Source: Apostichopus japonicus (Eukaryota > Echinodermata > Holothuroidea > Aspidochirotida > Stichopodidae). Taken from it: a stretch of DNA of 64,000 nucleotides. Positions 10,705 through 61,211 of this stretch are shown here, piece after piece (positions within the stretch are counted from its first letter, which is position 1; the number at the start of each line of letters is the position of its first letter). The stretch covers positions 6,014,001 through 6,078,000 of the forward strand of contig NC_092566.1 in the NCBI RefSeq assembly GCF_037975245.1, written 5' to 3'. The notes beneath the pieces were generated by a model that saw nothing but the letters and a program-made list of their open reading frames with translations, was not told where the DNA came from and did no database searches. The position numbers and the translations under genes were made by a program.

Positions 10705-13700
10705 CTATGTGAAGGTAAGGCCAGCATCGTGATAGGTCCTGAAGATCTTCTCAATAGATGTCACATATGCAGCAGTTCTCAAATCAAGTCCCAGGTTGTA
10801 CTTCATTGCAGTCCTCATTATTTGCTGTCAATTATAGATAGGGAAAATTCAATAAATAATACACTAATTATTATTATATTATAGTGAGAAATATCTTTAA
10901 TGAAATGACATCACATAAAAAATGATTACTTGAGTTAATAGGCTCTCCGAAATATCTTTCCAAAGGCCTGCCTTTATCTCGAATATTATAATTAAAATAT
11001 AAACCATTATTATTCACTAACAAGACCTATGAGAAACCAAGACAAGGCACGGTAGAACGAGGTGCTAAGGTTGTGAGGAGACAGGTAAGCGAGGAGTGCA
11101 GTAAATACAAACAATTATTATTCACTTACAAGACATATGAGAATCCAAGGCAAATATTAGGGAGTGTTAGCTCAGTGGTTAATGCCGGTGCCTTTCAATC
11201 ATAAGGTCCCGAGTTTGAGTCACTCCAAGATTAATGTATGTCGTCCAGTTACAGAGTTGTTGACAATTGACAATTCATAATCATGGACGTTAAAATATGA
11301 ATCTAAGAGACTGACTTCGGTCAGCTTGCGGCTTTGATAAGCCAATGATGGCTTCTTCGCAAGTTCCTGCTTACAGGAGGATCTAAAATTTATACATACA
11401 TATAATTAAAGGTGTAACTAGAAGGCCTGGTTATTTTGTATACAAAGTGAATATGTGCACAAATTTAACAACATCAATAACATTGGTAATACAGTATTAT
11501 GTGTCAATGATGAAGGGGATTACATACCCTAGCAGATCTCTCCATGGTGTATGAAAGACCACTGTTTACAATGTCCTTCTCATTGGCACCGGCAATCTGC
11601 TCACTGAAAGCCTTTGATGGGACGATGGGAATCGGACCTCCGTTACGTCCAAACTTCCTCTCCAGACTCTGCTGAACGCTCTCTGTGAGAAATAATGCAT
11701 ATTCATGAAAGCAGAAATGGTAAAACAGAAACAACAACAAAACAAGCAAGAAAGAACTAAAGTGACCAAAATATTCCCTTATATTTTGATGGTAAATTAA
11801 GGCAATAATTCTACCTTTACCCTAGTCAAACACAGCTAGCTGTTATTTACTTTTTACTTGTTATGCTCTTTTCTTTTGCTCAGCCCACTGAAGTTTTAGT
11901 AGCAAGTATATTAATCTAGTTTAGTTGATATTTTGAATCCCAAGAGTTAGGAAGCCAACAGTAGCTCATTTGATAACAATATCCATGTGATCGGATGAAA
12001 CACAGGCATTTACAAAGCCTTCTCTCTTGATGAGTTTTCAGAGAATTAGGAGGCAGTTGAGTAATTGTTGCACCCACTACTGCTTGGGTGCGGCCAGGAT
12101 TGCCACTTAAAACGATGACTTTAGGCAGAATTTTAGTCTTGATTTTTATATTGATTGTTATAACAGAAACAAGAAAAAGTTGTTGCCAGTAATGTTTATA
12201 AAACTATTCTGGATTTCAAGACATAATTAAGCTTAATCTCTAAAGGCTAAATTTATGGTAAAGTCAGCTCCTCAGTACAGGCCTTAATGTTCATCATGTT
12301 AATCCATTGTTTCAGAAATTATAATGACTGAACCAAAACGTTCTTTTAACTTCATATCAACAATAGAGCATTCTTGGATGACTTTCAAGAATGTTGACCT
12401 TGCAAAAGATACATGTTATTTGAGGTCATAAAGTCTTGTAACTCCCATTGAACTTTGTGTTGCACCTGAAGAACTGACCTACTGGTCAGTGTGTTAGACT
12501 CAGTCCAGCCACTTTAATTGATTAACCTGAACTGTTTACAGAGTCATTTCTCAAACATTGAAAGTGTTATACAAAAAATAAATGGGACTGGAAGTGGTTG
12601 TTAATGGTGTCATCCTTTAAGATCCCAAGTTGATAGCAAGAATGTACCACAAGGTCTGACCACTTTCTCAAATACTGAGGGAGGTGAAGGTACCCCATTC
12701 ATCATCACTGCAGTGTAGCTATGGTAAAAGAAGTAATTCGCGCACCCATCCCTGCTCAGAGAGCCACCCTTTACGAGAGCGTACCTCAACATCTGACCAG
12801 TTTCTCAAATACTGAGGGAGGTGAAGGTACCCCATTCATCACCACTGCAGTGCAGCTATGGTAAAGGAAGTTTCTTCGAAACCAACGTAAGACAGTTCAC
12901 AATTGACAAACCAGAAATACCAAATCCAGGGGAGAAGACTGCTCAACAACATTGCAGAGCAGCAATTATGAATAGGACTCAGGAATCTAGTTCTAGGTGA
13001 GGACTTTTGAAACATGAATCTAATGGTTGTGGGGCAGAAACTCTTTGACTTTTTACTGTCCACTGTTTTCAAGAATACACACACAGGTAGCAGGCTCCAG
13101 CAGAAGCACAACTTGCTAACACTAGTTTCAAGTCCCAGAGCCATATTATTATTATTATAATTACTATGGGATCCTTTTCAATGTTAGTCGGATTAATATA
13201 TTCTGCAACCTACCAAGGAGATGATAGTTTGATTCCTTCTCGTATTTGAAGGTGAGCCGTCCATAGCTGACATGATTCAGGTTCTTCAGCCATTCAAAAT
13301 AGGAGACTGTCACACCTCCAGCATTGATGAACAAATCCTGAGGTTAAGAAAAACAAGATGAGATACTGTAATTCCACTGGCTTTGATCACGGAGGAGGGG
13401 GGGGGGATCCCAGTAACACATGGAAGACAAGGTTTACTGAAGTTTAAGCCTTTGTACATACATCACAAATTGTCCCATCTACCAAAACAGAGAAGATTTT
13501 GTCCTGTTACTAAAATCCCATAATAGAGTAGTATATATATGACTGGCTACTCATGTTCCATTTCAAATAGTGAGAAGGAAAGCAGTATCACACATTTGCA
13601 CATTTCATATGGTTTTGAATGTGAGCACAATAATGCGGTAATAAATCTTAATGACAATGTTGGAATTGAATGGTACTGATAGTTACAATGGACATTCTAT

Positions 13701-16700
13701 TTATAAAGATGGCTTGCTAGAGCTTCATTACTTGATCAATTTTTAATCTTATTTGGAAGCCATACTCGGGCAGCTGTAGTAAAGTTGGTAATCATACAGC
13801 TGTGTTAAAGATAATGGAAAAGGGTTCCTAGGGAGTGTTAGCTCAGTGGTTAACGACCATGCCTTCCAATCATAAGGTCCCCTGTTCGAGTCACTCCAAG
13901 ATTAATGTATGTCGTCCAGTTACAGAGTTGTTGACAATTGACAGTTCATAATCATGGACGTTAAATATGAATCTAAGAGACTGACTTCGGTCAGCTTGCG
14001 GCTTTGATGGCTTCTTCGCGAGTTCCTGCTTGCAGGAGGATCTAAATAATATACATACAAATACATACATCATCATCCTCAGATCTGATGAGGATTCTAA
14101 TTCTATAGCAACATATGTTTACAAATAAGTTTTTCATTGGTTGTATTCATCTAGGAATATAATATGTCTTTTCAACTCACAGGTATGACTAGGACTTTCT
14201 TTTCCAGAAGAATCTTGTCTGCAGCAGGAGTTGTTGGTCCGTTAGCACCTTCAGCGATAATCTAAGGTAAAAGTAAAATATCTGTAACCATGTAGCTCTA
14301 AGCATCATTCATTCAGTTTTACATGGTTTATTTTTAACATATCATAACTAACATATTATTAGCATTTTAAATATTATCAACACAACACAATGAACATATT
14401 ATTAACATTAACATAACATATTATTAACATTAACATAACATTAACATTACTGGAGTGTTAGCTCAGTGGTTAACGCCGGTGCCTTCCAATCATTAGGTCC
14501 CCGGTTCGAGTCACTCCAAGATTAATGTATGTCGTCCAGTTACAGAGTTGTTGACATTTGACAATTCATAATCATGGACGTTAAATATGAATGTAAGAGA
14601 CTAACTTTGGTCAGCTTGCGTACTTTGATAAGCCAATGAGGCTTCTTCGCGAGTTCCTGCTTGCAGGAGGATCTAAAATACATACATACATGTATACATA
14701 CATACATATATACAACATACAAAACATAACTAATTATTCACATAACATTATAACATATTCAGTATTTACATATTCAGTATTTACATATTCAGTAGTTACA
14801 TACCGCAAGAAGATATACAGGAATATCTTTTCTACCTCTGCTATTACTATCAGTAGTCACTGACAAATACAAATTGAAAACAGAACCTAACTCATCAGCA
14901 CAATGTCAAAGGTCAAGAGATCCTACTAGTTAACGGAAGATTACAATAAGTGCAGGTGATCAATGATAAAATTGCAAAGATAGGAAACTCAAACCTTTGC
15001 TTTGATGAGATCAGCATTTTGAGCATTGATGACCTTTTCTCCGGCACATGGTACAAAGATATCGCATTCCTCAAACATGAGATTATCGGTGTATTCCTTT
15101 GCCCCTGGAAATCCCACGATGGTGCCATTCTCCTAATCAGTGAAGGAGGTTTTAAAATAGTTAGTTTAGAAAGCTTTATCTTAATTAAAATAACATATTT
15201 AATGTAAGATAAACAAACAAACTGTAGCAATGTTATGGATTCCTGTTGAATATCATATAACTGCACTTTTAAGTTGAGGTGATTTTACAGTGAAGACACA
15301 CTTAGTACTTCAAATGTACATACAGCTCCCTGGTATAGTTAATATTGCTACAGAGAATCTGGCATGGTCAAGGTATTAAACTTTTGTAATATTGTGTAAT
15401 ATTAGTAACATACAGTGGATTGGTTCTGAGGAAATGGTCTAATTCCATATGCTACAGTAGGAGATAAAGTGAATAATTTGAACGTTTAGTTCAATGAGCT
15501 ACTTACAATCTTGTAGTTCTCCAATTCCTTGGGATCGATGCCGTTAGGATTGTAAATACTGCCATCTATCTCCATGACTCCAACACATCTACATCCATAT
15601 CGGTGCAGGTATCTCATAGAGTGAAGACCAACATTACCAAAACCCTGTTGAAAGACGACAGAGAGTCTGTTATACTGACATTCGACTAAGTGTTTGAAGG
15701 TTGGCTTGTCTTGTCATTCCCAGCAGGACCTTCTTCCAAATAGACTTACAAAGTTACAAATATAGCATCGTTATTGCAGTGCTGTGGCCAAGTGGATAAA
15801 GGCGGTGGCATTTGAAGCAATGAGGATTTAGCAATCGGGAGGTTCTGGGCTCTATACCCGGCCGGGTCACAGCAAGGTGGGTTTTTCATCCAACAGCAAT
15901 CTACCGTTTTCCCATCTTATATAACTTTATAAATTGAAAAGTTTCCAAATTTGAGTTAAAATGTTGAATTGGAAGCCACCCAATGTGTAAGTTGTAATCC
16001 ATAAGCCCTTCCGGGTTTTATCCCACATTTGTGGTCGCTTAAGCGTCGTAAAAATAACTGCTGACTATGTATAACATGCCACCTTTTACACATCCTGGAA
16101 TTTTGTATAACGTGCCACCATTTTACAGATACTGAGATTATGTATAACATGCCACCTTTCTACACATCCTGGGATTATGTTAAACATGCCACCATTTTAC
16201 AGATTCTGGGATTATGTATAACATGCCACCATTTCACAGATACTGGGATTATGTATAACATGCCACCTTTCTACACATCCTGGGATTATGTTAAACATGC
16301 CACCATTTTACAGATTCTGGGATTATGTATAACATGCCACCATTTCACAGATACTGGGATTATGTATAACATGCCACCTTTCTACACATCCTGGGATTAT
16401 GTTAAACATGCCACCATTTTACAGATTCTGGGATTATGTATATCATGCCACCATTTCACAGATACTGGGATTCTGAATAACATGCCACCATTTTTACAGA
16501 TACTGAGATTATGTATAACATGCCACCATTTTTACAGATCCTGGGATTATGAATAACATGCCACCATTTACAGATCCTGGGATTATGTATAATATGCCAC
16601 CATTCTACACATCCTGGGGTAACGAACAACATGCCACCATTTTAGAAATAATCACTAAAAGCTGGTATCTTTTCTGTGTATGCAGGCATATCCAGTACCA

Positions 16701-19700
16701 TATCACCGCCTAAGTGTTTGGAATTATGTGTTTATGTTCCATTTTTATCTGTTTGTAACATATTTTACAATCAGAATAATAAACAGAACCCTGGTTAGTT
16801 CATTCTTATAAGTTATACGGTCCCATCTCTCCCAAAAAGTTGAAATGTACTTAATTCTTACCATTATGATGCAAGTCTTGTCACCAAATCCTGGAGTCAG
16901 GCCAACTGCGCTCATGTAAGATGCCTCCATGACAAAGTTTTCGATTCCGTGAAGTATTCCGCGGCCTGTAGCTGAAGTACGTCCATGAATACCTCCCTAA
17001 ATGCAAACAAACAGACATCACTTAAAGTCATGGGAGTCAAAAATGATATATCCACCTTCATTAATTATCTATAAACAAGGTACAGTATTTCAACACCAAC
17101 AACAACACGGTTTCGTACTTTATCACAGAATTACACCTTGTCATTTATAGAGAATGAAGCCGGTAAAAGGGTATTCATATCAAAATGATTAAAAACTTCA
17201 AATTTGTTCTGCAATGAACAACAACTATATTACACAACGTACTACTATTTTCATTTCTTTTTTATATTAGAATTTATAAGCACTTTACATGACAAGCATC
17301 AACTTGTACTTTAACCATTTTCCACCAACATTACAATCTCATTTAATGAAATTTTCTCAGCAAATTTTTGAGTAACACCTGTTTGTCACAGAATGAGACT
17401 TTGGCTACGGTGTTAGTGAAATTAAAGCAAAATTTATGGTGTCATGCCTTTAGCAAGTAAGTTTCTATGGTTGAATGAATCAATTGCATTTAGTTCTTGA
17501 AGAGACTTATTTACTGACAAGACCTTATGAATAATAACCTTAACCTGCCAGCCCCCCCCCCCCCCTCCTTCACCATCCCTTGTCTAATATGAATTTATGG
17601 GTATATCTCTATTGAGATCAGCAATATTTTTTCTAAAGATAAAGTTTAATCTATAAAGAAATGAGATTAGTATGTTTCTTTTTTAAACATGCAGAAGTTT
17701 GTTGGACCTTTATTACTGTTTAGTTTTGTTAATTAATATTAGAAGATTTAAACATTAGAAAGACAATAAAAGACAATACCAGTGAAAGTCATTAGTCATC
17801 TGTTGTGAAAGGACTAATGATATATGACAAAGACATAACAGACTTTAGTCATCGTGGAAGACTTAGAGGAATTTCATTTTCTTCTCGGTTTTCTCGTCAC
17901 CAGCAGATGTAGTTCTAACTGAGATTGGGTCATTTCACTATTTCATGCAATTCTCTCCTTTAATCTGCTTGTATCCCCCCCTCAACCCCCCCCCCCAGTC
18001 CATTGTGATGAACAAACTAATCTTCAATAAATCAGTAATCACCACTTTGTTTCTACTTCAATAGGTAAGTCATAACTAAATCAGAATTTTTAATGAGACA
18101 ACTGAAACATAAAGAAAACCATTACTTGTTCCAGAACTATTCACAATATATGAAAATTCAAATTTAAACAGAAACCAACTCTGAAATTATCCACACCCAC
18201 GCTATGAAATATCCACGGGAAATGTTCTTGCGAAGGATATACAGTATCCTTACAATTATGCCTAACAGTGAAACTAAGCACCATTAGGCTTAATTTGCAC
18301 AGATACATCCTAGAACGTGTATTTCCAAGAACAAAGGAGCTCACTTCCCACGCATACATCCTTACAAACAAGAACATTTCCTATCATGGATTATTTCCAA
18401 GCGAGAGTGTGATAGTTGGGTGGAACCAAGCATCACAAGCTCTAGAACCATTCTCGGTATATATGAAACATAGAATCATTAAAAGGAACCATGAAACATG
18501 CAAAGACAGTGCACCATATAATGAACACTATAATAACAGCACAATAAAAGAATATGGTATTCTAAAAACAGTCATTAACCAAGGAATTGTATTGACTAGG
18601 TTTTAAAGGTTTTAAATGTTAAGCATATGGTGTTCAATAATAGATTGCTCACATTTCTTTCCCAATTTTTCATTATGCTAGGGCAGGGGAGGGGGGGGGG
18701 GCAGATTTTTAACTCATCACTGTAAACTGTATTATAATTGGAAAATGACTGATAAATCTGTGCTTGCTTGTTCCTGCTCACTGGTGACTAAAGTACTAAA
18801 CCACAGGTTAGTTTAAAGAGCATAGTGAAAGAAGATGATCTACTTATGAACAAACAACTATGTGTGAAATGTATTGATGTGAAGCAATTACTAAATGAAC
18901 AAGAGCTTGTTGAATGCTTCTAACTAGCTGTGTCTCTTGTATACTTCATTCTTCCCTTATTGCTGATCTTTTCTGATCCCTCCCTCCCTTCATCATCTCT
19001 CCCTTCCCCCTCTCCATTTCATTTCCCTTATCAAAATATATTTTTTTCATAATGCAGCTAGTGGTTTCTTGTTTAATTCTAATATTACCAAATTAATATC
19101 CAACTTTCAATTAGGTGAAGTTAGTAATATGTCCAACAACTAGTCAATGATCCACAGAGCACCATTGTGTATAATTAATCACTTTCCTACAATATCGTTA
19201 ATATTGTATCTCATCTATTGCTTCTGTGTTTTCATATCTTTTCTATCTTACACTTAACTGATCTATCAAAGTAAAATGATCATGCATTAAACACCAGGTG
19301 CTACCCAATCTGTAAATACCAACAGAAAGTGCCAAATTTTCATCTTACTAACACACAGTGGCCGCAGATGACCTTTGACCATGCAATGTTCAAAGACCCC
19401 CTTCATCTGCCGATACATCATCAGAAGAGACGGAAAGAGCAAGAATAATAGAGAAATGCAAAACAATGAATATACTTGAAAGGGACAACAATACCTTAAA
19501 GTTGTAGAACAATAGAAGCTATCCACCACCACACTAAGAAGATACACAGTGGCAACACTATATTCTCTTGCTCTAGAAAGACATGTTTTTTTTTTTATTG
19601 TTACCAAGGAAACAACAAACATCTGTAGCTGACAAGATAACAAACTGGACAGAAACCTCTTACACATATATCACATCTACAAGGTAGCATAGAGTTGAAT

Positions 19701-22700
19701 CTCTGTTTAAGATTAATGTATATTTATTTATGCATCTGCAAAGGTCTAATTAGTCAAGCTTACAAACTATATTACTAGTTATGGATTAGCTTTGTGATAT
19801 TAAACATGGTCAGCTTTCTATTGTATCAAGATACAAGTTATTCACTGTGTATTTATAGTCAACAAAGACTTCACACATGAAACATGTAAATATTAACAAT
19901 TTAACACTACAGTTCCATGTATGATCAATTTGATAAGAGATGGTTAGCAATAATGAACTATAATATGGATATGATTTAGAACTCAATGAACGTTAAAAGC
20001 CTAGCACGGCTACATGATATAAATATCCTGGTTAATCAGCAAAAGTTTAATATGCAAGAGTACAGGACAAACATTTTTTTCTTTGCTTTTCATTCTGTGT
20101 TTGTGCACACCAGAAACTGTCCAAACTCTCTGATTTATTTTACATTTTCTGCGACAATTGCTCCTGAGTGTTATAGTTAGTATTAATTTGGCAGTTTTTT
20201 GCTTTAACTTAAGAGCATTCTGAGTATTAGGAAAGTATGTGCATGTACTACTGATGTGAGAAAGAGATATAAATTATCATGATATTTTAGCCATTTAGTC
20301 ATGAAATGCTGCTGAAATGGAAAGTGGTATTGAGCGCTAGGCATGCAGAGAGACGAACACTGAGAAACTACGGACGAATAGAAGACGAGAAGAGAGAACA
20401 AGAAAAAATAAATACTATAGACCACCAGTGAAGCAGAAAAGAGGAAGTTTTCTCAGCTTAATCCACAAGCACAGAGTTTACCATTGAAATTGGTTTGCCT
20501 GTTACACAACCTAACGCGTTCATATCTTTGTGGCCAATTGTCATTTGATATGTATCCGCGATCCAACTCATTTCCCTCTCCCCTGAGCCCATGTCGGGAG
20601 CGGGAACGTCGATGCCTGGTCCTGAAATGATATTGAATTACTGGTTGAGATTGTGAGAAAGACAATTAAATACAGCCATGACTTGACAATGACACCCACA
20701 GGGACTGTGGAAATCTTCTTCTCGGCTTCTTACGTAGAATTGGACGAGAGAAGTAAAACATACAAAAAATAGTTCAGGAAAAGCTGAGGCAGCAAGATCT
20801 CAAGCATATGGATGATGATTTGAAATCGTTGAATTTCAAGCTGTAATTTAGAAGGTTTAATTTTGAATCGATTTCTTCGGAGCAGTAGACTTTGAGTACT
20901 ATTAATGAAAACATTAACAGTATCATAATTCATAATCCATTTTACCATTTTGGCTTCAACCTGCTGGCCATGCTATTAAAAAAAGAAGTAATCTTCTCTC
21001 TCTAATCCTACTCGGCAAGAAGTATTTCAACTGTCCCGTTTTGTGTCACTTTCAAGAATTAAAGCCCGAAAAGTATGACAACCACTTACATCAGAACCGC
21101 TGATCAATCTGTTCCGGGCACAAGTTTTCAAGTTTTTCACTTTTTGTAACCACAGAACTAAAAAGCCTGCATGTTAATGAAGAAGATGAAACAGTTCTAC
21201 ATCATTAGTCTCAGATCTTTTTAACTGAGCCTTCTTCTTGCCATAAAGTGTGCAGTGCCCATAGATTAATAAGCGGTGCTCATGAAGCGAACAAAACTCT
21301 GGGGCATAGTCCACTCTCTGAAATCCTTGTGTTATAATCATCTCACCTGTGCTCATCATGTTGGTTAAGTGAAAAATTGGTGCACTTTAACTTTGAATGT
21401 ATGGAACAAAGATATGCACCCCCATACAGGGGTTCCTCATTGATCCATGCACCCCAATACGGGGGTTCCCAATTGATCCATTGGGCATAAAAACATCCCT
21501 GTGTGGTTAAAAGATGATAACACAAGATTCCCAAAGAGTGTACTAAACCAAACCAAATTTTTTGGGTGTACCTGAGAGATTGGTTTGCCTGTCACACAAG
21601 CTTGTGCATTTATATCCTGATAACCAATAGTGTTGGCAAATGTGTCAGCAATCCAACTCATTTCACGTTCTCCTGTCCCCATGTCGGGGGCCGGGACATC
21701 GACACCGGGCCCTGGATACACAGAGAAACTCAGTTGGTACAGAAACAAGTAGTCATGCCAGATATTAATGAAATCACAAGTTTACATCATGCACATCCAG
21801 CAGAATAGCTCTGCATGAATGGATTGAGACCCCCACCCCACCCCCCTCAATAGTAATAGACAAAAGAAAACAGTTTGAATGATTTCCTGGTCAATTTGAT
21901 GACAACTGCCAAAATTTACACTAGGTAGATTTTCAAACAAGTTGATTATTGTTGAGACTTTTGAGACAGTGTTTGACTTGGACATGAAGGTTCTTGTACC
22001 AACAATAGGGAGGGGAAGGGGGGTCTACAAACAAGCTATCCAAGCTACGTTTTTAATACTATCAATACTGTCTTATGACCAAATATTATTTTCAAGGTTT
22101 TCACAGTTTCACCTGGTTGACCTAACCTTGAACTTGACCCTTATCCAAACAATACGGTTCTTGTAATTAGGCAAAGAACAGTTGGATACTGGTCAAACTT
22201 AGGGTCCAGCTTAGCTTTATGGAAGGACATGTGGTGCTTAACAGATTCTCTCATGTGTTGACTTCCAGCGATCTGTTACCACTTAAAAAAATAACATTTT
22301 CTTACTAACCAAGGGGAACCAAACATCAACTTCAAACTCTTATGATGGAAATAATTGTTGACAAAGCTTCCAGACCTAGACCTCTATGGACCTCTAAAAG
22401 GGAAGCATTCTTGTATTTATAAACAGAGATATACTTATCGTACATGTATAAATTTAACCAAAAAAGCCGGAGTATGTTCACACTATGACCGAATGAGATC
22501 TATAAATTTCACTGAAAACTGAAACAGTCTTATTGTTAAATGACCAACTAGAAATATTTGGCTTATATGGTGTAGGTCTTTTCATATTTATCTTGCCCTG
22601 TTAAAACTGCCTCCACAAAAGTGGTTGAAGAAAAGTTGACTACATAAAACTGCAGTTTGGAGTGATTGCACTCACATGCTAATAATGTAACACACGTGTA

Positions 22701-25700
22701 TGCATGTCATAATAGAGACCTATATCACCTAACTGCTCTCAAATATAATATAATAAATTCATTGACACTGAAATATAACCACAAACTACCATTTTAAAAT
22801 AATTTAATTCCCCCAAAAGGGACACACTTAAATCTTTTATGCCTGATATAGGTATGAGTAGCATGATGTTTCTCACCGATGAAACCTTTCTTAGCCAGCT
22901 CAACACAGAACCTCCTGGTAACTTTCTCTAGTTCCCTGGGAGAGTGCTGCCTGGGATCTATCTTGATACCACCTTTGGCGCCACCAAATGGTACATCTAC
23001 AACAGCACATTTGTAGGTCATGAGCGACGCCAGGGCCTTGACCTCATCCACGGTGACATCTAAACTGTAACGTATACCTTTAACAGGAAGCAAGAAATAG
23101 AAATTCGTAAACACAAATTCCATTTATGTTGTGGAATCAAGTTATCAATTAGAATCCATGATTTCTGTAACATTTAGCTCTATTTAAATGAGTTCAAAGA
23201 TTCACTACTCACACTCTGGTACCAAGTTAAAAATTTTTATGGAACTCAACCAACTGCTCTCGTACATATATATGTATATGGCTCTGTGGTCCAGTCATAT
23301 TGATGTGATTTACGACTATTTTCACCTCACACACTCACCAATCTGGCCCTAACACACACAAACATGCAATTGTAAGTTCGTGGTATTACTCATGATGGTA
23401 CAGAGATATGATTATAGAGGTACCTCCTTTGCAGGGAGTTCGATGCTGGCTGTGTTGTGCTCTGTGCGCCTCAATCATAACAAAGGAGCCATCATCTCTC
23501 TTCAATGGGAAGTTGATACTGAGCACATGATTACAGGGCTTCAAGAGAGTCAGGATACCTTTGACCTGCACATTTTGGAAAATTAAAAATGAGTATGGTA
23601 ACTGTAGTCCAGTCATGCATGTGAAATGATAAATGTTTTAAGTGCATTTTCAAAGTGGCCCAAAATGGCCCTCAGATACCAGACCACATCATCCACCAGA
23701 CAGTTTATCATGATTCAACCACTTTAAATGCCATGTTTGCTGCAGCTCGGTCAATCTGACTGGTACCTTGCTGGTGCTATACCGACTCCTTTTTGGCGAT
23801 GCAAGAGTACATTGCGGTTATACCTACAACTGGCCAGCTTCACCAGGTGTAACCTATCACTGAGAAATAACACTGCATGTAACCTAACCGGGCAGCGGTT
23901 ATTAACGGGCAGCAGTTATTAACAGGCAGCGGTCATTAACGGGCTGCTCTCATTAACCGGCAGCGGTCACTAACCAGCAGTGCATCATTAACGGGCAGCA
24001 GTCATTAACCGGCAGCAGTCATTAACTTGAATCTTGAAAACTTTGCAAATTAATGTCATAAAAGTCGAGTAATGTTGCACCATTTTCTCAGTTTTCTTGA
24101 GTTGAACGTGTGGCCAGCATAAAATTATTGTGGAAAGGTCATAACTACTGGTGCTTGAAATATCACCCTGGCAATGAACTTAACTACAGAAAACTGTGAA
24201 AAGTTGGAGATCTGTCAAACTGTTATACCACGTTACTGTTTCATCTGATTACATAATACATAATTACGAATAGTAATTCCAAACGTTCCAGTGCTGGTGA
24301 TTTTCAGCATATTTACCTCATTTAAGCAAGTTTGGGATCACTATTATTCAGCAATCATCAGTACATTATCCTATGTACAAGAGTGATCAAGTCAATTCAA
24401 TTTATGCACTAGTTACTTATAAATAGAACAGCTGAGCACTAGATCCTCGAAGAGCCTTGATTTAGATTATTATCAGATAGCTTAGGTCTTCATTCAAGCA
24501 TCACGAATGACCTTTATCCCTAGTAGGATTTAATTTTCTCCTATAGTAAAAGTACATGCAGGTATGGGAATAGAGATCTCTCTAGCCTTGGTGTATGTTA
24601 AGTTTGCTCTGTAAATAACTGTGAGTAACTGTACACACAGAGAACTGTCGTAGTGTTGTGTCATAAAATAATACTGACATCTCCCACTAAAGCTTGCTGG
24701 TCACTATCACCAGCATTGACACAGACTATCAGTAAAAACCAGAATACCCACCAATAACACCTCAGGAGAGTATTTTAATGCAAAGAAATTTCAGACAGGT
24801 TCCACTGTTTTGGTTCAGATTCGGGGACAATTTTAAACATGACAATGTTATTACAGGGATTTTACTAAATTTCAATTGTAGTGCTCAAGGAGTTTGTCAG
24901 ATAATTGCAGAGCTGGTTAATCACACGATCGAGTAATTTGTACAATTAAAGGTGTGACACTGAGTGGTGAAGAAATAAATTAATTGTTCCCTAGTCAATC
25001 AGGAAACCAGTCGCTTTCCTAGAGAGACACTTACTGTACTATGTTCAATGTGTCTATGCGCTTAGCTTAGCTTACTATGTACACCAGTTGTGTAGTATTT
25101 TGTTATAGTATATTATCCCATACAGTACTTGCTAAGTATCTGTCTGCTGTATATGTTAACAGTACTAATGATTCTGCCCTACACCATACAACTTGCATTG
25201 TGGCAGGTGTTTATAGACATTTATACATCCTATGACTAATGATGTGTATCAGTCCATTAGTCTCAGTCACTAGCTACTTCTGTAGAAAAACTTGGATAGC
25301 TTGTATTACATTTAGTGTATACTTGGAGTTCCTTTTGCAAAAACATGGTAGTTCAGCTTACATCACAGCATTCATGCAGTGCCAGAGGTCACAGAAAGGT
25401 CTGTTAATACTGTATATGTGTGACATGAAACGAAACTGGCATTTCATTGGGAACTTTCTCAGTTCCTCATAGGTCTGAACAACTTGTACTTACAATGTAA
25501 CTACCTTAATGTGTCGTCATTCCAACAACATATGTAAATTACTATGTTCAATCTCTAAATTAATCCGGTCACATGTGTATTGTTCGGTTACGCCACTTAC
25601 CACTTGTGATATTTTCATATATTTTGTGTGATATTGTGTGATATATCTGTGTGATATTTTCATATATATTGTAACACTGTTACTGTAAAGTTGTGGAGCA

Positions 25701-28700: not shown

Positions 28701-30986
28701 TCTTCTCTTACCCTATATCTCTTTTCTGTGTCCGTTTCTTGCCCTTTAAGCGTCTCTACCAAATAATCTTCCACCAGGCTGGCACCTCTATCATAGAATA
28801 GCTCCACCATCTCAAAGAAATTTGGGTCATCATCTGAACAATAACAAAAGAAATCAGCAATAATCACATCTAGAAGATGCCAATGCCATTCTTCAGTATG
28901 AAACTTCATCATGTGTGCAGACACAAATTCCCTGTGACTAGCTATTCTCATTTACTGCACGAATCTACAAAGCTGGTCAAGCTGTTAAAGGGCAGTGTTT
29001 TATTGTTTGGATGGATTTTATTGCAGTTGAAATTACATTTGCAATGCAAACTTTTCATCAAATATACTAGTTAGATAATGGAGGATAGATAGGGAGTTGA
29101 GTAAACCTTCAACATACACAAATTATACTTAGAAAAAAAAAAACTGTTGCCAAAGTACTTATCCACTAAAGAGCCTGTGTAAGAGAATGTGTAAAAATTA
29201 GTGGGCCTGACGTTTCTATCCTAGCAGGCAGGATCTTCTTCAAAGGCTGAAAGACAAGTAACAGAAACTACTTGTAGTTTCTGTCAGGTCCACTTACTCT
29301 TACGCAAATTGTGCTTGTTAGCAAAACCTGCTGCTCATGAAATGTTGACAATAGAATGTCTACATCTGTCTATAAAATCACATATTAACATTAATTTTCC
29401 AGAACTATATGACCAACAAGATGATATTCAGATATATGTGTTAGCCACTCCTATCATTTCAAATATGGGCCATTACCATGGGTCAAACGTTGGCACAATC
29501 TTTCTGGTGAGCATTTCCATGTTCATTGTATGACCCTATCATAGAAGTTTGATGAAACGATTTCAGAACCATGTAACAGTAATGAGCAAGTACCATTTAA
29601 GCTAACTCACACTCATTCAGTTAATGCCATACCGTATCCAGTACATCCAGAATATTGCTCTCTGACATGTTGGAGCCCTTCTCTCTCATATATACCAGGT
29701 ACAGAAGTACTCACAAAGGTGGATGAATAAAGAAAAATGTACCTCTTGCATGTAGAGGACAATGTAAAATGTTCATATATAAACAAGATTTTTACATCAT
29801 GAATGACGATCTTTAAAAGGTATTGCTATATATAGACAAATTAAACGCTACAGAAATAACCCCCAGTTTCTTCATAGGTTTGTCAAAATATGAAAAAGTT
29901 GAGAAATTGATTACACAATGAATAAAACTGTGGCATAATTGAACCCACCATGCTACTTGATTATTCATTTTGTGTAACTCATACTTAGGTGTCTACAGCT
30001 AATTTGTGGATCTTTCAGTATTCTTGTGTGGGTAACATTGTTGTATGTATACATAGTTTGTAACTATAGACTTTGGATAAATGAAATGACTTGACTTAAC
30101 AATAAAATTGATTGTGAATTAATATGCCAAAAAGGAAGGTGTATTACATCACAAATCTGTGACAATTGTTTAAGACTTAATAGGCAGACCATGTATACTT
30201 AAAATTTTCTTTATATCTTATTGTACTGAATAACGAAGTAGTCTGATTCTGAACTCTACACAGAGTCCCAGAATCTAGGGCCAAGAGGACTCAATTCCAA
30301 AAACTAGAGTTTCTCAAATAATGAAATTACTTTAATACTTATAGATTTTAATTATAACATTATGAGACATTATTGGATTAACTATCGAAATATAGAGGCT
30401 GGCCGATCTCAATGAGATTAAGCCTTAGAATCCATTAACAAAAGACTAGCAGACCAAAGCAACCTTATATTGACAGTAGCTTAGCCTACCAAAAAAGGTT
30501 CAAGATATTTTAGTTGTAGTTTTGATGAAACTATGGAACATAATTTGCAACAACAAAGGTAGTCTAACAAAGATACTTTCCATTTCAAAAGCAGTGTGAT
30601 TCTGCCTTGGCATAAATGCTCATTCTTGGAGAGGAAACTAATCAACTGGGATGGAAACTAACATCTAACATTCTTTATTGCGACAAGTTAGGCCTAGTAC
30701 TCAGCCTTCACATAGTGAAACTAAGCCTAGCCCGTAGGATGCATGCAGGAATAGACAAAAGTTGGGAAGGAAGAAATGCGTAGGTTATGCCTACAGTAGG
30801 CTAGGCCTAGTAAGAAGTAATTTACTTACTTTCTGCTGAACTACTATGCTGCCTCGCTATGGGTGATGTATGTAGCCTAGCGTTATTAAAATCAGCTGAT
30901 ACAACCGGCGCATGGCGTAGTAAGACCGCTGTATCTCTTCTCTTCGACACCTTTCGAGCGACTGTGAAGGCAAGGTTTCTTAGCAT
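10705..30986 (-). CDS. GLUD1: Glutamate dehydrogenase, mitochondrial (GLUD1), complete, with duplicated exon 5
   Basis: Exons in transcript order: 30986-30830, 28833-28712, 23565-23424, 23077-22877, 21711-21572 (5a) or 20621-20482 (5b), 16996-16862, 15644-15507, 15132-14995, 14261-14181, 13337-13214, 11682-11528, 10824-10705. With one exon 5 the frame is continuous: 1653 nt, 550 aa, TAG stop at 10707-10705. The human protein is 558 aa. GDH interconverts glutamate and 2-oxoglutarate with NAD(P) in the mitochondrial matrix. The first about 50 residues are Arg/Ser-rich without acidic residues near the start, a typical import presequence. Visible landmarks are the substrate-binding region (HRTPCKGG), catalytic Lys in PFGGAK, PAPDM, the dinucleotide-binding [17 protein letters not shown], and the animal-type antenna insert followed by SYTMERSAR. 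The antenna implies allosteric regulation as in other animals. Introns are rich in SINEs and minisatellites. Confidence 0.97.
11159..11404 (+). mobile_element. tRNA-derived SINE, copy 1
   Basis: The head has a pol III A box (TTAGCTCAGTGGT) and a B box-like GAGTTTGAGTC. The body is shared with the copies at 13831 and 14452: GTCGTCCAGTTACAGAG, CTGACTTCGGTCAGCTTGCG and AGTTCCTGCTTACAGGAGGA. The tail is short and ATACATACA-like. It is inserted in GLUD1 intron 11. A local 46-bp duplication (near 11003-11050 and 11109-11154) precedes it. Confidence 0.85.
12656..12877. repeat. Spaced duplication of about 85 bp
   Basis: 12656-12740 and 12793-12877 are about 93% identical (both contain TTTCTCAAATACTGAGGGAG and GGTACCCCATTCATCA) and are separated by about 50 bp. 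It lies in a GLUD1 intron, with no coding content. Confidence 0.8.
13831..14070 (+). mobile_element. tRNA-derived SINE, copy 2
   Basis: Same family as the copies at 11159 and 14452, with A box TTAGCTCAGTGGT and B box TGTTCGAGTC. The body ends in GCTTGCAGGAGGATCTAAA and a tail of ATACATACAA units. It lies in the GLUD1 intron between exons 9 and 10. The ORF across it on the - strand (residues [13 protein letters not shown]) is repeat-derived. Confidence 0.85.
14452..14712 (+). mobile_element. tRNA-derived SINE, copy 3
   Basis: Best-preserved copy of the family: A box TTAGCTCAGTGGT and a perfect B box GGTTCGAGTC, then the shared body and an (ACAT)n tail. It is flanked upstream by a short repeat array of ATTAACATTAACATAAC and downstream by ATTCAGTATTTAC repeats. 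It lies in GLUD1 intron 8. Confidence 0.87.
15776..15925 (+). mobile_element. Second tRNA-derived SINE family, fragment
   Basis: The stretch has a Leu/Ser tRNA-like A-box region (GTGGCCAAGTGGATAAAGGCG) and a B box-like GGTTCTGGGCTC, followed by ACCCGGCCGGGTCA. It is unlike the three-copy family nearby. It lacks a foldable, complete tRNA cloverleaf, so I call it a SINE head and not a tRNA gene. It lies in GLUD1 intron 6. Confidence 0.6.
16068..16650. repeat. 37-bp minisatellite with 111-bp higher-order unit
   Basis: About sixteen imperfect copies of a 37-bp unit containing ATAACATGCCACC, TACAGAT(A/T)CTGGGATTATG and variants. At 16140-16472 three successive units form a 111-bp higher-order repeat, present three times with only a couple of base differences. 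It lies in GLUD1 intron 6, about 210 bp inside the 5' splice site of exon 6. Confidence 0.92.
16997..20481. other. GLUD1 intron between exons 5b and 6
   Basis: No further copy of exon 5 and no other coding exon was found by eye. ORFs inside have no recognisable similarity. The stretch contains C runs near 17550 and 17985, a G run near 18690, and a DR1-like TGACCTTTGACC at 19371-19382. Confidence 0.6.
20482..20621 (-). CDS. GLUD1: GLUD1 alternative exon 5b (mutually exclusive copy)
   Basis: This second copy of exon 5 has exactly the same length (140 nt) and phases. Its acceptor is CATTTCAG after a reasonable tract and its donor is GTAAAC. The translation is open and keeps [16 protein letters not shown] and CVTGKP. 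By my count 36 of 47 residues match 5a. The differences cluster in the second half: [15 protein letters not shown] against [15 protein letters not shown], and a final Met instead of Gln. At the His195 position it has Leu. It lies 950 bp after 5a in the transcript. Using 5a and 5b together adds 280 nt and breaks the frame. The absence of stops and the conservation of all core motifs argue against a dead exon copy. Confidence 0.88.
21572..21711 (-). CDS. GLUD1: GLUD1 alternative exon 5a
   Basis: 140 nt, entered in phase 1 and left in phase 0, with acceptor TATCCAG and donor GTACAC. It encodes 47 residues including the split first Gly. PAPDM (Asp168 in mammalian mature numbering), [11 protein letters not shown] and CVTGKP are kept. 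By my count it differs from human GDH at 7 of 47 positions, so it is the more conserved copy. At the position of mammalian His195 it has Gln (NAQAC). It is the upstream copy in transcript order. Either this exon or 5b completes the reading frame between exons 4 and 6. Confidence 0.93.
23889..24025. repeat. 17-bp minisatellite
   Basis: Eight copies of a 17-bp (once 18-bp) unit, CGGGCAGCGGTCATTAA and variants. They lie in the intron just upstream, in transcript sense, of GLUD1 exon 3. Confidence 0.9.
24026..28711. other. GLUD1 intron 2
   Basis: Long AT-rich intron without coding signal. ORFs here are short and unlike known proteins. The only structured content I can support is the repeat near 28100-28430 and two TGACCTTTGACC motifs (27168-27179 and 28232-28243). 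Confidence 0.55.
28100..28430. repeat. Interspersed repeat with TGACCTTTGACC motif
   Basis: Two related half-units (GTATCCATGATTTCAACCATGAGATATC and, later, GTATCCATGATTCATAACTTGAGATATC, shown here as landmarks at about 28168 and 28342) flank a TGACCTTTGACCTCCACC segment. The arrangement resembles the dispersed repeats with this motif common in marine invertebrate genomes. The family is not identified. Confidence 0.45.
28834..30829. other. GLUD1 intron 1
   Basis: No coding exon is seen. The stretch contains a Penelope-like fragment at 29204-29284. In its part nearest exon 1 (30690-30880) there is a cluster of TAGGCCTA and AGCCTAG motifs. Confidence 0.6.
29204..29284 (-). mobile_element. Penelope-like element fragment with degenerate hammerhead motif
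   Basis: Read on the - strand, the stretch shows TTTGAAGA (compare hammerhead core CTGANGA), an ATCCT...AGGAT stem II, then GAAAC-GTC-AGG (core GAAA, short stem III, cleavage triplet GTC). This is the layout of the minimal hammerhead ribozymes known in Penelope-like elements. The first core C has become T, so it is probably inactive. A related copy at 34547 shares the flank GACAAGTAACAG. A perfect inverted repeat, ACAGAAACTAC/GTAGTTTCTGT, sits at 261-284 of the 29 kb block (29261-29284). Confidence 0.5.
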
Positions 30987-34277: not shown

Positions 34278-44327
<10,050 letters not shown>

Positions 44328-59300: not shown

Positions 59301-61211
59301 AGGAAGAGAGCCATCAAATGTTGTCTTGAGAGAAATCCCCAGGCGTTCCATCCTAAAATTGGCAAGGGGGCAGCGGGTCAGTCGCAGCGTCGTCATAACA
59401 AGGGATGTAACTGCAAGAGATCGGGCTGCTTAAAAAACTATTGTGAATGCTACGAGGTAAGTTTCTCTGAGTCTCTTATCTGAGTCATTTGATTGAGTTA
59501 TTTGTATCAATTCATCTCGCTAGTACAGATGGTAGGAATGGTAGAAAGGTCATGTAGAGCAGCGTTCCACAAACTTTTAGGACCACAACCCCAAATCTTC
59601 CGTGAGGATTGAGTCAGGAGACAGCAGATCCCGCACCTCTAGGAATCAATTTTCAGCATACATGAAAGCTAGCATGGAGTAATGACTTGGTAGTAAAATA
59701 TTAAACCTAATCTCTCTCCGTCGGCATGCTTTGAAAACCGTAGATAAATTTTCAACATCTGGGGACCCACTTTTAACTTCACAACCCACTTTCTTCGGTG
59801 TAGAGAACTAAAGCCCCTGAAATGTAGCCAGACACCATGGGTTACAAGGGAATCGATTAAAAAGTATTGCCTTAGTCACTCAAACAGTGTTTGGTTAAAT
59901 TGTATTGACTCTACTGTCTATTGTCAGTTGTATTGATGTTTTCTTTACTTGCAGGCCAAAATTCCATGTTCTTCCATCTGTAAGTGTGTGGGCTGTAAGA
60001 ACTTTGAGGAGTCGCCAGATCGCAAGAGTCTGATGCATCTGGCGGACGCCGCAGAGGTCAGACACCAGCAGCAAGCTGCAGCCAAAGATAAGCTTTCATC
60101 ACAAATACAAGAATTCCCAGAGAGACCACCACAGTACGGAGAATCAGGAGAAAGGTTAGTCTATGGATGATTCCTTGCTGCTTGAACAGAGTAACTCATT
60201 CAATCCTTACTGATTGAACAGAGTAACTCATGAGATGCAGCCTCACTGACCTGTATATGTGTTAGTCTACGTATTTATTCCTTACTGATTGAACAGAGTA
60301 ACTCATAGGATGCAGCCTCATTGACCTGTACATGTGTTAGTCTAGGTATTCATTCCTTACTGATTGAACAGAGTAACTCATAGGATGCAGCCTCATTGAC
60401 CTGTATATGTGTTAGTCTACGTATTCATTCCTAGCTGCTTGAACAGAGTAACTCATAGGATGCAGCCTCATTGACCTGTACATGTGTTAGTCTATGTATT
60501 CATTCCTTACTGATTGAACAGAATAACTCATAGGATGCAGCCTCATTGACCAGTATATGTGAGCAGTCAAAACCTTAAAACCTTGTACAACTTGGAAACA
60601 TTTCCATTCTTTACTCAAGTCGGAAGTTCACCAAATTGGCACCACATACAGCAAAATTATGAACAAAACTTTTAAAGTTTGCCAATGAAGACATCAATCA
60701 TAACATAAAATTTGTGGGATCAGATTTTTCTGAATTTCATGAAGCTGCAAAAAACTCACACGTTAGGGACAGGTGAGTAGTTTAACCACAGATATATCTC
60801 AGTTTGGATCGAGGAATCCTCATTTATTTGTGAATATTATATGGCTTAATCACCTGGCCATGTTTTGACTTAACACTTTCAAAGCTGTAGTAGTAGCTTG
60901 ATTTTTTATGGTGCATACAGGTTGATGTAATCTGCAGGTAAGTATGCACTTATGTTAGTTGAGCGTAACTGCACATGAGTTGACAGGGATTTGACAGTTA
61001 TTTTTTTGTTTTTTTTTGCACCAGGTTACCATTTTCATTCATCACTTCAGAAGTAGCAGAAGCAACATGTAACTGCCTGCTAGCACAAGCAGATGAAGCG
61101 GTGAGAGGAGAAGTCTCACAGAGCGAGGCAGAGAGGATGATTCTGGAGGAGTTTGGCAGATGCCTGAAGCATGTTATAGCTTCAGCTGGCAGAAGCAAAG
61201 GTAGAGACTGA
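47346..61211 (+). CDS. LIN54: LIN54 (MuvB/DREAM complex DNA-binding subunit), complete, 9 coding exons
   Basis: Coding exons: 47346-48134, 49911-50109, 51640-51749, 55227-55409, 56329-56432, 57215-57286, 59216-59456, 59955-60154, 61025-61211. They total 2085 nt, 694 aa (human 749), with all phases matching. The start ATG sits in an ideal ACCACCATGG context. The N-terminal 420 residues are Ser/Thr/Gln-rich and weakly conserved, with a basic cluster SKKRKIA near residue 225. Then come two cysteine-rich CXC repeats ([18 protein letters not shown] and [17 protein letters not shown]), including both tyrosines that in human insert into the minor groove of the CHR element, then [11 protein letters not shown]. 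The C-terminal helix-coil-helix ([23 protein letters not shown]) binds other MuvB subunits. LIN54 recruits MuvB to cell-cycle promoters for repression (DREAM) or activation (with B-Myb/FoxM1). Two acceptors are NAGNAG. Additional weakly conserved exons in the long introns cannot be excluded. Confidence 0.96.
48135..49910. other. LIN54 intron after coding exon 1
   Basis: AT-rich, without coding signal or recognisable repeats. ORFs here are short and unlike known proteins. Confidence 0.6.
50110..51639. other. LIN54 intron after coding exon 2
   Basis: No exon is visible by eye. The ORF at 50752-51060 has no known similarity and lacks suitable splice borders. Confidence 0.6.
51750..55226. other. 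LIN54 intron after coding exon 3
   Basis: 3.5 kb without recognisable exons. The flanking exons join in phase 0, so a skipped exon of a multiple of three would not be noticed. The only clear structure is the duplication near the acceptor (55045-55205) and a small GGGGGGTAGGGAAG repeat at about 53483-53515. Confidence 0.55.
55045..55205. repeat. Tandem duplication upstream of LIN54 exon 4
   Basis: About 75 bp is repeated (55045-55123 and 55133-55205); both copies contain ATATGGATTATTTCACC and TGTAAAGCATTAT. The array ends about 20 bp before the acceptor at 55226, so it may overlap the branch-point region. Confidence 0.85.
57625..58995 (+). mobile_element. Decayed L2/CR1-like LINE, reverse transcriptase remnant
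   Basis: In broken frames the stretch reads like the 3' half of a non-LTR retrotransposon ORF2. It starts with [10 protein letters not shown] (the catalytic YADD-type box at 57638-57649). Later come INDIKSWM, then ILAHLDYCY, then [20 protein letters not shown]. It ends with [21 protein letters not shown] in an intact 75-codon piece (58767-58991). This order matches the L2/CR1 clade. Stops and frameshifts throughout make it a dead insertion in a LIN54 intron, in the same orientation as the gene. Confidence 0.8.
60155..60560 (+). repeat. 75-bp minisatellite starting at a LIN54 splice donor
   Basis: The intron that follows LIN54 exon 8 opens with GTTAGTCTA at its donor (60155). GTTAGTCTA then recurs at 60261, 60336, 60411 and 60486, an exact 75-bp period for the last four. 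The unit also carries TGAACAGAGTAACTCAT and GATGCAGCCTCATTGACC. Every copy thus repeats the first bases of the 5' splice site. Confidence 0.9.

Follow-up and report, generated by a model that had tools for sequence, protein, structure and literature searches.

The glutamate dehydrogenase (GDH) gene of Apostichopus japonicus carries one of its coding exons as a tandem pair, and the genomic sequence makes it very probable that the two copies, 5a and 5b, are used as mutually exclusive exons and encode two isoforms of the enzyme. Mutually exclusive use had been proposed in an earlier note on this DNA, and our analysis supports the proposal: the copies are homologous and in phase, either one alone completes GDH, and both are constrained.

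Results

The GDH gene and its duplicated exon

The window, by which we mean the whole 64-kb stretch of DNA that was analysed, holds on its minus strand a GDH gene with 11 coding-exon positions running from 28833 to 10705, one of which is occupied by the pair 5a/5b (Table 1). With 5a or with 5b the joined exons form a single open frame of 497 residues whose C-terminus, DAGLTFT, is followed by a stop, and residues 1–497 of the 5b version aligned with residues 5–501 of the PDB 3etd chain gap-free and end to end, antenna stretch included (E 2.9e-263). We identify the gene as an animal-type hexameric mitochondrial GDH (GLUD1 type) of an echinoderm. The targeting-sequence exon 1 was absent from the matches of the motif search, which aimed at other GDH exons.

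Table 1. Coding exons of the GDH gene, the intron between the duplicated exons, and TGCATG words near them (positions in the window).
Feature	Position	Strand	Remarks
Coding exon 2	28712..28833	-	First exon recognised; motif search and exon joining
Coding exon 3	23424..23565	-	Exon joining
Coding exon 4	22877..23077	-	Phase 1 out; in frame with 5a or 5b
TGCATG	21788..21793	-	82 nt upstream of 5a; weak post-hoc lead
Exon 5a	21572..21711	-	140 nt; first G split with exon 4; more mammal-like copy
TGCATG	21446..21451	-	121 nt downstream of 5a; weak post-hoc lead
5a-5b intron	20622..21571	-	950 nt
Exon 5b	20482..20621	-	140 nt; more diverged copy
TGCATG	20342..20347	-	135 nt downstream of 5b; weak post-hoc lead
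Coding exon 6	16862..16996	-	Phase 0 in; in frame after 5a or 5b
Coding exon 7	15507..15644	-	Carries GFGNVG, presumably the dinucleotide-binding motif
Coding exon 8	14995..15132	-	
Coding exon 9	14181..14261	-	
Coding exon 10	13214..13337	-	
Coding exon 11	11528..11682	-	
Coding exon 12	10705..10824	-	Ends in DAGLTFT and a TAG stop

Re-reading the window confirmed what the earlier note had given for the pair, namely its coordinates, the 140-nt lengths, the AG/GT borders and the phases (1 in, 0 out), as well as the 950-nt spacing and the 36 of 47 residues shared by the copies. The PAPDM motif and the CVTGKP strand are, as it also held, common to both, and the differences cluster clear of either. 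At the nucleotide level the copies are 73% identical over 139 nt; this similarity ends at the exon edges, the flanking introns being without significant similarity. Joining 5a to 5b produces the expected frameshift, with a stop after 218 residues (17 of them read from 5b), and a GDH with neither copy stops after 192 residues. The further claim that each copy is open in the correct frame only was true of 5a, where coding-strand stops per frame number 0, 3 and 2, and had to be given up for 5b (0, 5 and 0), in which a second coding-strand frame is also stop-free.

No match of useful score to a third copy of exon 5 was found within the 64-kb window. When the window was compared with itself in translation (pairs on the same strand, 60–8,000 nt apart), 5a/5b was among the strongest pairs (best 60 of 504); among these 60, the pairs stronger than 5a/5b match in many frames and on both strands and are repeat-like.

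Several repeats were observed in and around the gene. A dispersed element of ∼250 nt has three copies in GDH introns (11139-11405, 13810-14064 and 14452-14707), whose translated pieces (15–58 residues) are about 68–100% alike. The 6-7 intron contains a minisatellite (16066-16644) with 37-nt units and a higher-order period of 111 nt, and an array of 17-nt units with matches of about 79% lies in the intron that precedes exon 3 (23889-24026). Two other tandem arrays, at 36674-37319 and 60194-60561 and with periods of some 110 and 75 nt, are located upstream of the first recognised GDH exon.

Selection on the two copies

Silent sites have diverged between 5a and 5b to saturation (24.5 of 30.8 sites differ, pS 0.79), as compared to 15.5 of 110.2 replacement sites (pN 0.14), giving a pairwise pN/pS estimate of 0.18 in which pS is saturated (Fisher p 2e-11 for the contrast, on rounded counts). 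Direct site counting was used because dN/dS methods had no usable dS at this saturation. Third codon positions hold 26 of the 40 nucleotide differences, and 21 of the 36 residues identical between the copies carry a silent change. None of 8,000 neutral simulations run to the same nucleotide divergence kept 36 identities, the maximum being 30; between 31% and 37% of them ended stop-free, so the absence of stops from 5b is weak evidence when taken alone.

Nineteen exon positions are invariant in 80 of 80 prokaryotic GDHs of the animal type, a set made up of the 80 top-ranking sequences among 348 relatives that six peptide patterns (one derived from 5b) had retrieved, and all 19 are intact in 5a and in 5b. 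Identity to mammalian GDH (PDB 3etd) is 41/47 for 5a and 37/47 (79%) for 5b, the latter within the range of the other ten GDH exons (46–88%). Mammalian rows disagree at exon position 4, which is Val in 3etd and Ile in 6dqg; with Ile, the counts become 40 for 5a and 38 for 5b. The pattern of substitution is that of two copies both retained by purifying selection.

Position of the residue differences

Exon 5 corresponds to bovine mature residues 159–205 in PDB alignments (3jcz group) and to human numbers 216–262, the bovine numbering resting on the use of 3JD4 in the part of PMC5192433 that we consulted. The 11 residue differences between the copies are at exon positions 4, 13, 25, 26, 27, 31, 32, 34, 37, 38 and 47, that is, bovine 162, 171, 183–185, 189, 190, 192, 195, 196 and 205. 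Eight of these fall within 14 adjacent positions, bovine 183–196 (scan p 0.016, the window length having been picked post hoc), in the segment that separates the PAPDM motif from CVTGKP. Three positions have a different residue in each of 5a, 5b and the mammalian row (3etd): bovine 185 (N/M/S), 190 (Q/K/Y) and 195 (Q/L/H). Bovine Tyr190, as we take it, belongs to the inhibitory NADH site, where an adenosine affinity reagent labels it. Two substitutions of the hominoid GLUD2 also map to this exon, and the consulted part of PMC11050691 assigns I219V to the hydrophobic core/hexachlorophene site, which it locates within the central cavity of GDH, and sets S227N close to the NAD(P)(H) site. The first is the same I/V difference as that between 5b (I) and 5a (V) at exon position 4, and the second, at exon position 12, adjoins the T/S difference at 13. 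Because of where the differences fall with respect to known GDH sites, we favour a difference between the isoforms that would be regulatory rather than catalytic.

Exclusive splicing could also be real and the isoforms functionally equivalent, with drift accounting for their divergence, and such an account is compatible with the splicing part of our preferred explanation. Among the 80 prokaryotic GDHs, ten of the 11 differing positions hold more than one residue (at the eleventh, every sequence has a gap), so many of the substitutions may be neutral. However, the retention of both copies through saturation of their silent sites is hard to explain if they do not differ in use, and the differences between them cluster. 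We consider equivalence unlikely.

Splice sites and exclusion

On an approximate matrix, the donors of 5a and 5b scored 0.8 and 1.7, respectively, as compared to 0.1–5.1 (median 2.7) for the other nine GDH donors, and the polypyrimidine tracts of the two copies (10/16 and 9/16 pyrimidines) are below the gene median. Regulated exons often have weak donors and short polypyrimidine tracts. Exons 3 and 8 are as weak as the pair (donor scores 1.0 and 0.1; 9 and 10 pyrimidines of 16), however, and weak splice sites are thus not special to 5a and 5b.

Two known routes to exclusion do not fit the pair. The 950-nt intron is too long for steric exclusion between the copies, and U2/U12 incompatibility does not apply, as the donors (gtacac and gtaaac, with AG acceptors) are unlike the U12 donor consensus with which they were compared. 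Competing intronic RNA pairing was sought in this one genome in four intron comparisons, two of which were limited to the opening 1,500 nt of the 5b-6 intron; the best ungapped helices around 5a/5b were matched by 24, 23, 18 and 25 of the 30 dinucleotide shuffles made for each.

TGCATG, which we take to be an RBFOX-type motif, occurs three times within 150 nt of 5a/5b as against about 0.3–0.4 expected (P 0.003–0.008, for a motif picked post hoc), and CTCTCT words start downstream of 5b at 20396 and 20352, near the last of the three. Exon 3 also has two TGCATG. A search of the genome with the Fox-1 C-terminal domain model gave nothing over the cut-off (best E 0.54), which does not establish absence. 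RBFOX-type regulation of the pair is a weak, post-hoc lead.

The weakish splice sites of both copies, and the stop that double inclusion brings after 17 residues read from 5b, would also suit a poison exon, in which case 5b would act mainly by being included beside 5a, shifting the frame and sending the GDH mRNA to decay, and would control the amount of GDH and not its kind. A poison exon needs neither a frame nor a protein sequence, yet 5b has, in the GDH frame, conserved replacement sites beside saturated silent ones, and 19/19 of the family-fixed residues are intact in it; we therefore find this role for 5b quite improbable. Nor do we give much credence to a recent retirement, by which 5b (or 5a) was used until lately, is silent now and has its decay yet to come. 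Although 5b is the more diverged copy when set against the mammalian row (37/47 vs. 41/47 for 5a), it has no stop and no indel, retains AG/GT borders and has a higher-scoring donor than 5a (1.7 vs. 0.8), and a copy so free of scars demands that retirement be very recent.

Search for other GDH genes

An exon-5 peptide search of the 672-Mb assembly matched at 5a and 5b only. The two GDH Pfam domains gave six above-cut-off matches in the genome, all inside this GDH gene, and the three matches elsewhere were all under the cut-off (E 0.135–0.874). A second GDH gene is thus likely to be absent from the 672-Mb genome, within the limits set by runs of N and by an exon-wise search, and because none was found, no origin for two versions of GDH other than exon choice was detected. 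That the pair is an assembly or haplotype artefact, with two alleles or gene copies placed in tandem, can be practically discounted, since the silent divergence is saturated and the flanking introns cannot be aligned, both of which argue against alleles, and the genome searches brought up no further set of GDH exons.

Relatives were also sought in viral contigs, where three stretches fit a pattern and none encodes a relative. COX1 in the mitochondrial contig has AAA at the Asn of MNNMSFW, presumably a conserved position, and AGA at the next Ser. Both readings belong to the echinoderm code and so indicate an echinoderm; the flatworm code has them too, and we set it aside because of the character of the COX1 protein and of the ND4L-like frame that comes after it. 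Pieces of COX1 were seen at two places on the minus strand of G000 contig C29 (14745-16086 and 30842-31219), and COX1 in contig C35 is in one frame; the pieces in C29 may be mitochondrial DNA in the nuclear genome or belong to a mitochondrial assembly left unplaced.

Age of the duplication

The only residue common to 5a and 5b yet lacking in the mammalian row is Gly at exon position 12. Gly is found there in 80/80 prokaryotic relatives and is for that reason probably ancestral, which leaves 5a and 5b without a shared derived residue against the mammalian row and hints at an old duplication. In a tree of 69 rows (66 distinct prokaryotic stretches, 14 duplicates among the 80 having been dropped, plus 5a, 5b and mammal), the best topology united 5a with mammal (95/87), on 47 columns that are too few and with an unsettled bootstrap; neither a 5a+5b clade (p-AU 0.42) nor 5b+mammal (p-AU 0.45) was rejected on the same columns.

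A return of 5b to a bacterial-like exon was considered and rejected, as 26 of the 80 prokaryotic GDHs are closer to 5b and 31 to 5a, the rest being ties, in a count that leans to 5b because one search pattern was derived from it. Several bacterial GDHs of known structure score better with 5b than with 5a; 6yeh scores better with 5a.

Discussion

We propose that the exon for bovine residues about 159–205 was tandemly duplicated long ago and that purifying selection has held both copies as mutually exclusive exons. Each mature GDH mRNA would take 5a or 5b, and a transcript with both or with neither would run through a frameshift to an early stop and probably be degraded. Either choice would yield a complete enzyme with the PAPDM motif and the CVTGKP strand unchanged and 11 residues different. 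The 5a form may be the default, mammal-like enzyme and the 5b form a specialised one, altered in its allostery or cooperativity and used in some tissue, stage or stress. Our guess is that trans-acting factors choose between weak splice sites, with the reading frame as a backstop.

We infer that both isoforms are made, are spliced exclusively and differ in regulation, and we rate the regulatory difference lower than the exclusive pair with its two isoforms. Somewhat doubtful as a whole is the suggestion that exon choice acts as an allosteric switch, with 5b retuning the GDH hexamer by way of the stretch before CVTGKP that includes the bovine Tyr190 position, following a duplication on the echinoderm stem or earlier. 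If the allosteric-switch reading is true, one gene would do by splicing what GLUD1 and GLUD2 do with two in apes.

Duplicated exons are well known from other metabolic enzymes. In PKM the duplicated exons are 9 and 10, with splicing regulators and isoform kinetics established, and in KHK they are 3a and 3c, with isoforms and expression established. GDH itself has a splice variant in Drosophila, a spliced 13-residue insertion that is unlike a swap of homologous exons. In the accessible parts of PMC13296549 and PMC9741552, PKM1/PKM2 resembles the GDH pair in being an allosteric metabolic enzyme with alternatively used duplicated exons, and KHK-A/KHK-C in being a metabolic enzyme with an exon duplicated in tandem. 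As far as the accessible part goes, PMC9741552 describes the exchanged region of KHK as lying beside the ATP site, with the catalytic arginine present in both isoforms. PKM differs from the GDH pair in enzyme and domain, and KHK in enzyme.

The closest in setting is the alternative oxidase (AOX) of the eastern oyster. According to the part of PMC5589949 at hand, the AOX of Crassostrea virginica is a single gene with a duplicated terminal exon and switches between CvAOXA and CvAOXB under air exposure. On that account it shares with GDH 5a/5b a single gene for a mitochondrial enzyme in a marine invertebrate, one coding exon duplicated in tandem, the use of one copy or the other, critical sites intact in both copies and the greater conservation of one of them. 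The oyster exon, however, is terminal and subject to 3' alternative splicing, whereas the GDH exon is internal and frame-locked, and the AOX transcripts and their air-exposure switch have been measured in the oyster, whereas the GDH pair is read here from genomic DNA.

Two versions of GDH are also found in hominoids, where, according to the consulted part of PMC11050691, GLUD1 and GLUD2 are regulated differently, as the 5a/5b reading would have it, but GLUD2 is a second gene that arose through retroposition and not through exon choice. Mammalian splice variants likewise provide GDH isoforms from one gene; those in the consulted part of PMC5192433 differ in the first exon or by exon deletions and involve no swap of homologous exons. 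One of them, a gorilla GDH1 isoform, has a deletion that corresponds to exons and begins directly after Tyr247, as far as that part of the paper describes it. Human Tyr247 is position 32 of the 47-residue exon 5, and because the gorilla deletion, so described, implies a junction inside the 5a/5b unit, human GLUD1 intron positions seem to differ from those here. The earlier note had called 5a and 5b two copies of the same GLUD1 exon; their homology to each other stands, and the unit is, on the same partial description, probably not a human exon, given the junction after Tyr247.

In the open-licence literature, judged mostly from titles and the openings of abstracts, we came upon no description of a GDH in which homologous exons are swapped, and GDH was not among the matches to the terms asked in the accessible parts of PMC9013439 and PMC5703972. 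The novelty that had been claimed for the arrangement is thus narrower than first put: an exon swap in GDH is without a precedent that we found, but GDH splice isoforms and duplicated exons (PKM, KHK and AOX) were already known. Exclusive duplicated exons in GDH would be a known kind of arrangement in an enzyme for which we found no precedent.

The place of GDH at the junction of carbon and nitrogen metabolism has made the tuning of its allostery a long-studied subject. Two natural GDHs that differ at only 11 residues, grouped at a distance from the catalytic motif, would offer a ready test of which residues set regulation. The pair would extend the alternatively used duplicated exons of PKM, KHK and AOX to a core mitochondrial dehydrogenase, and it would add to the GLUD2 retrogene another way in which evolution has arrived at two activities of GDH.
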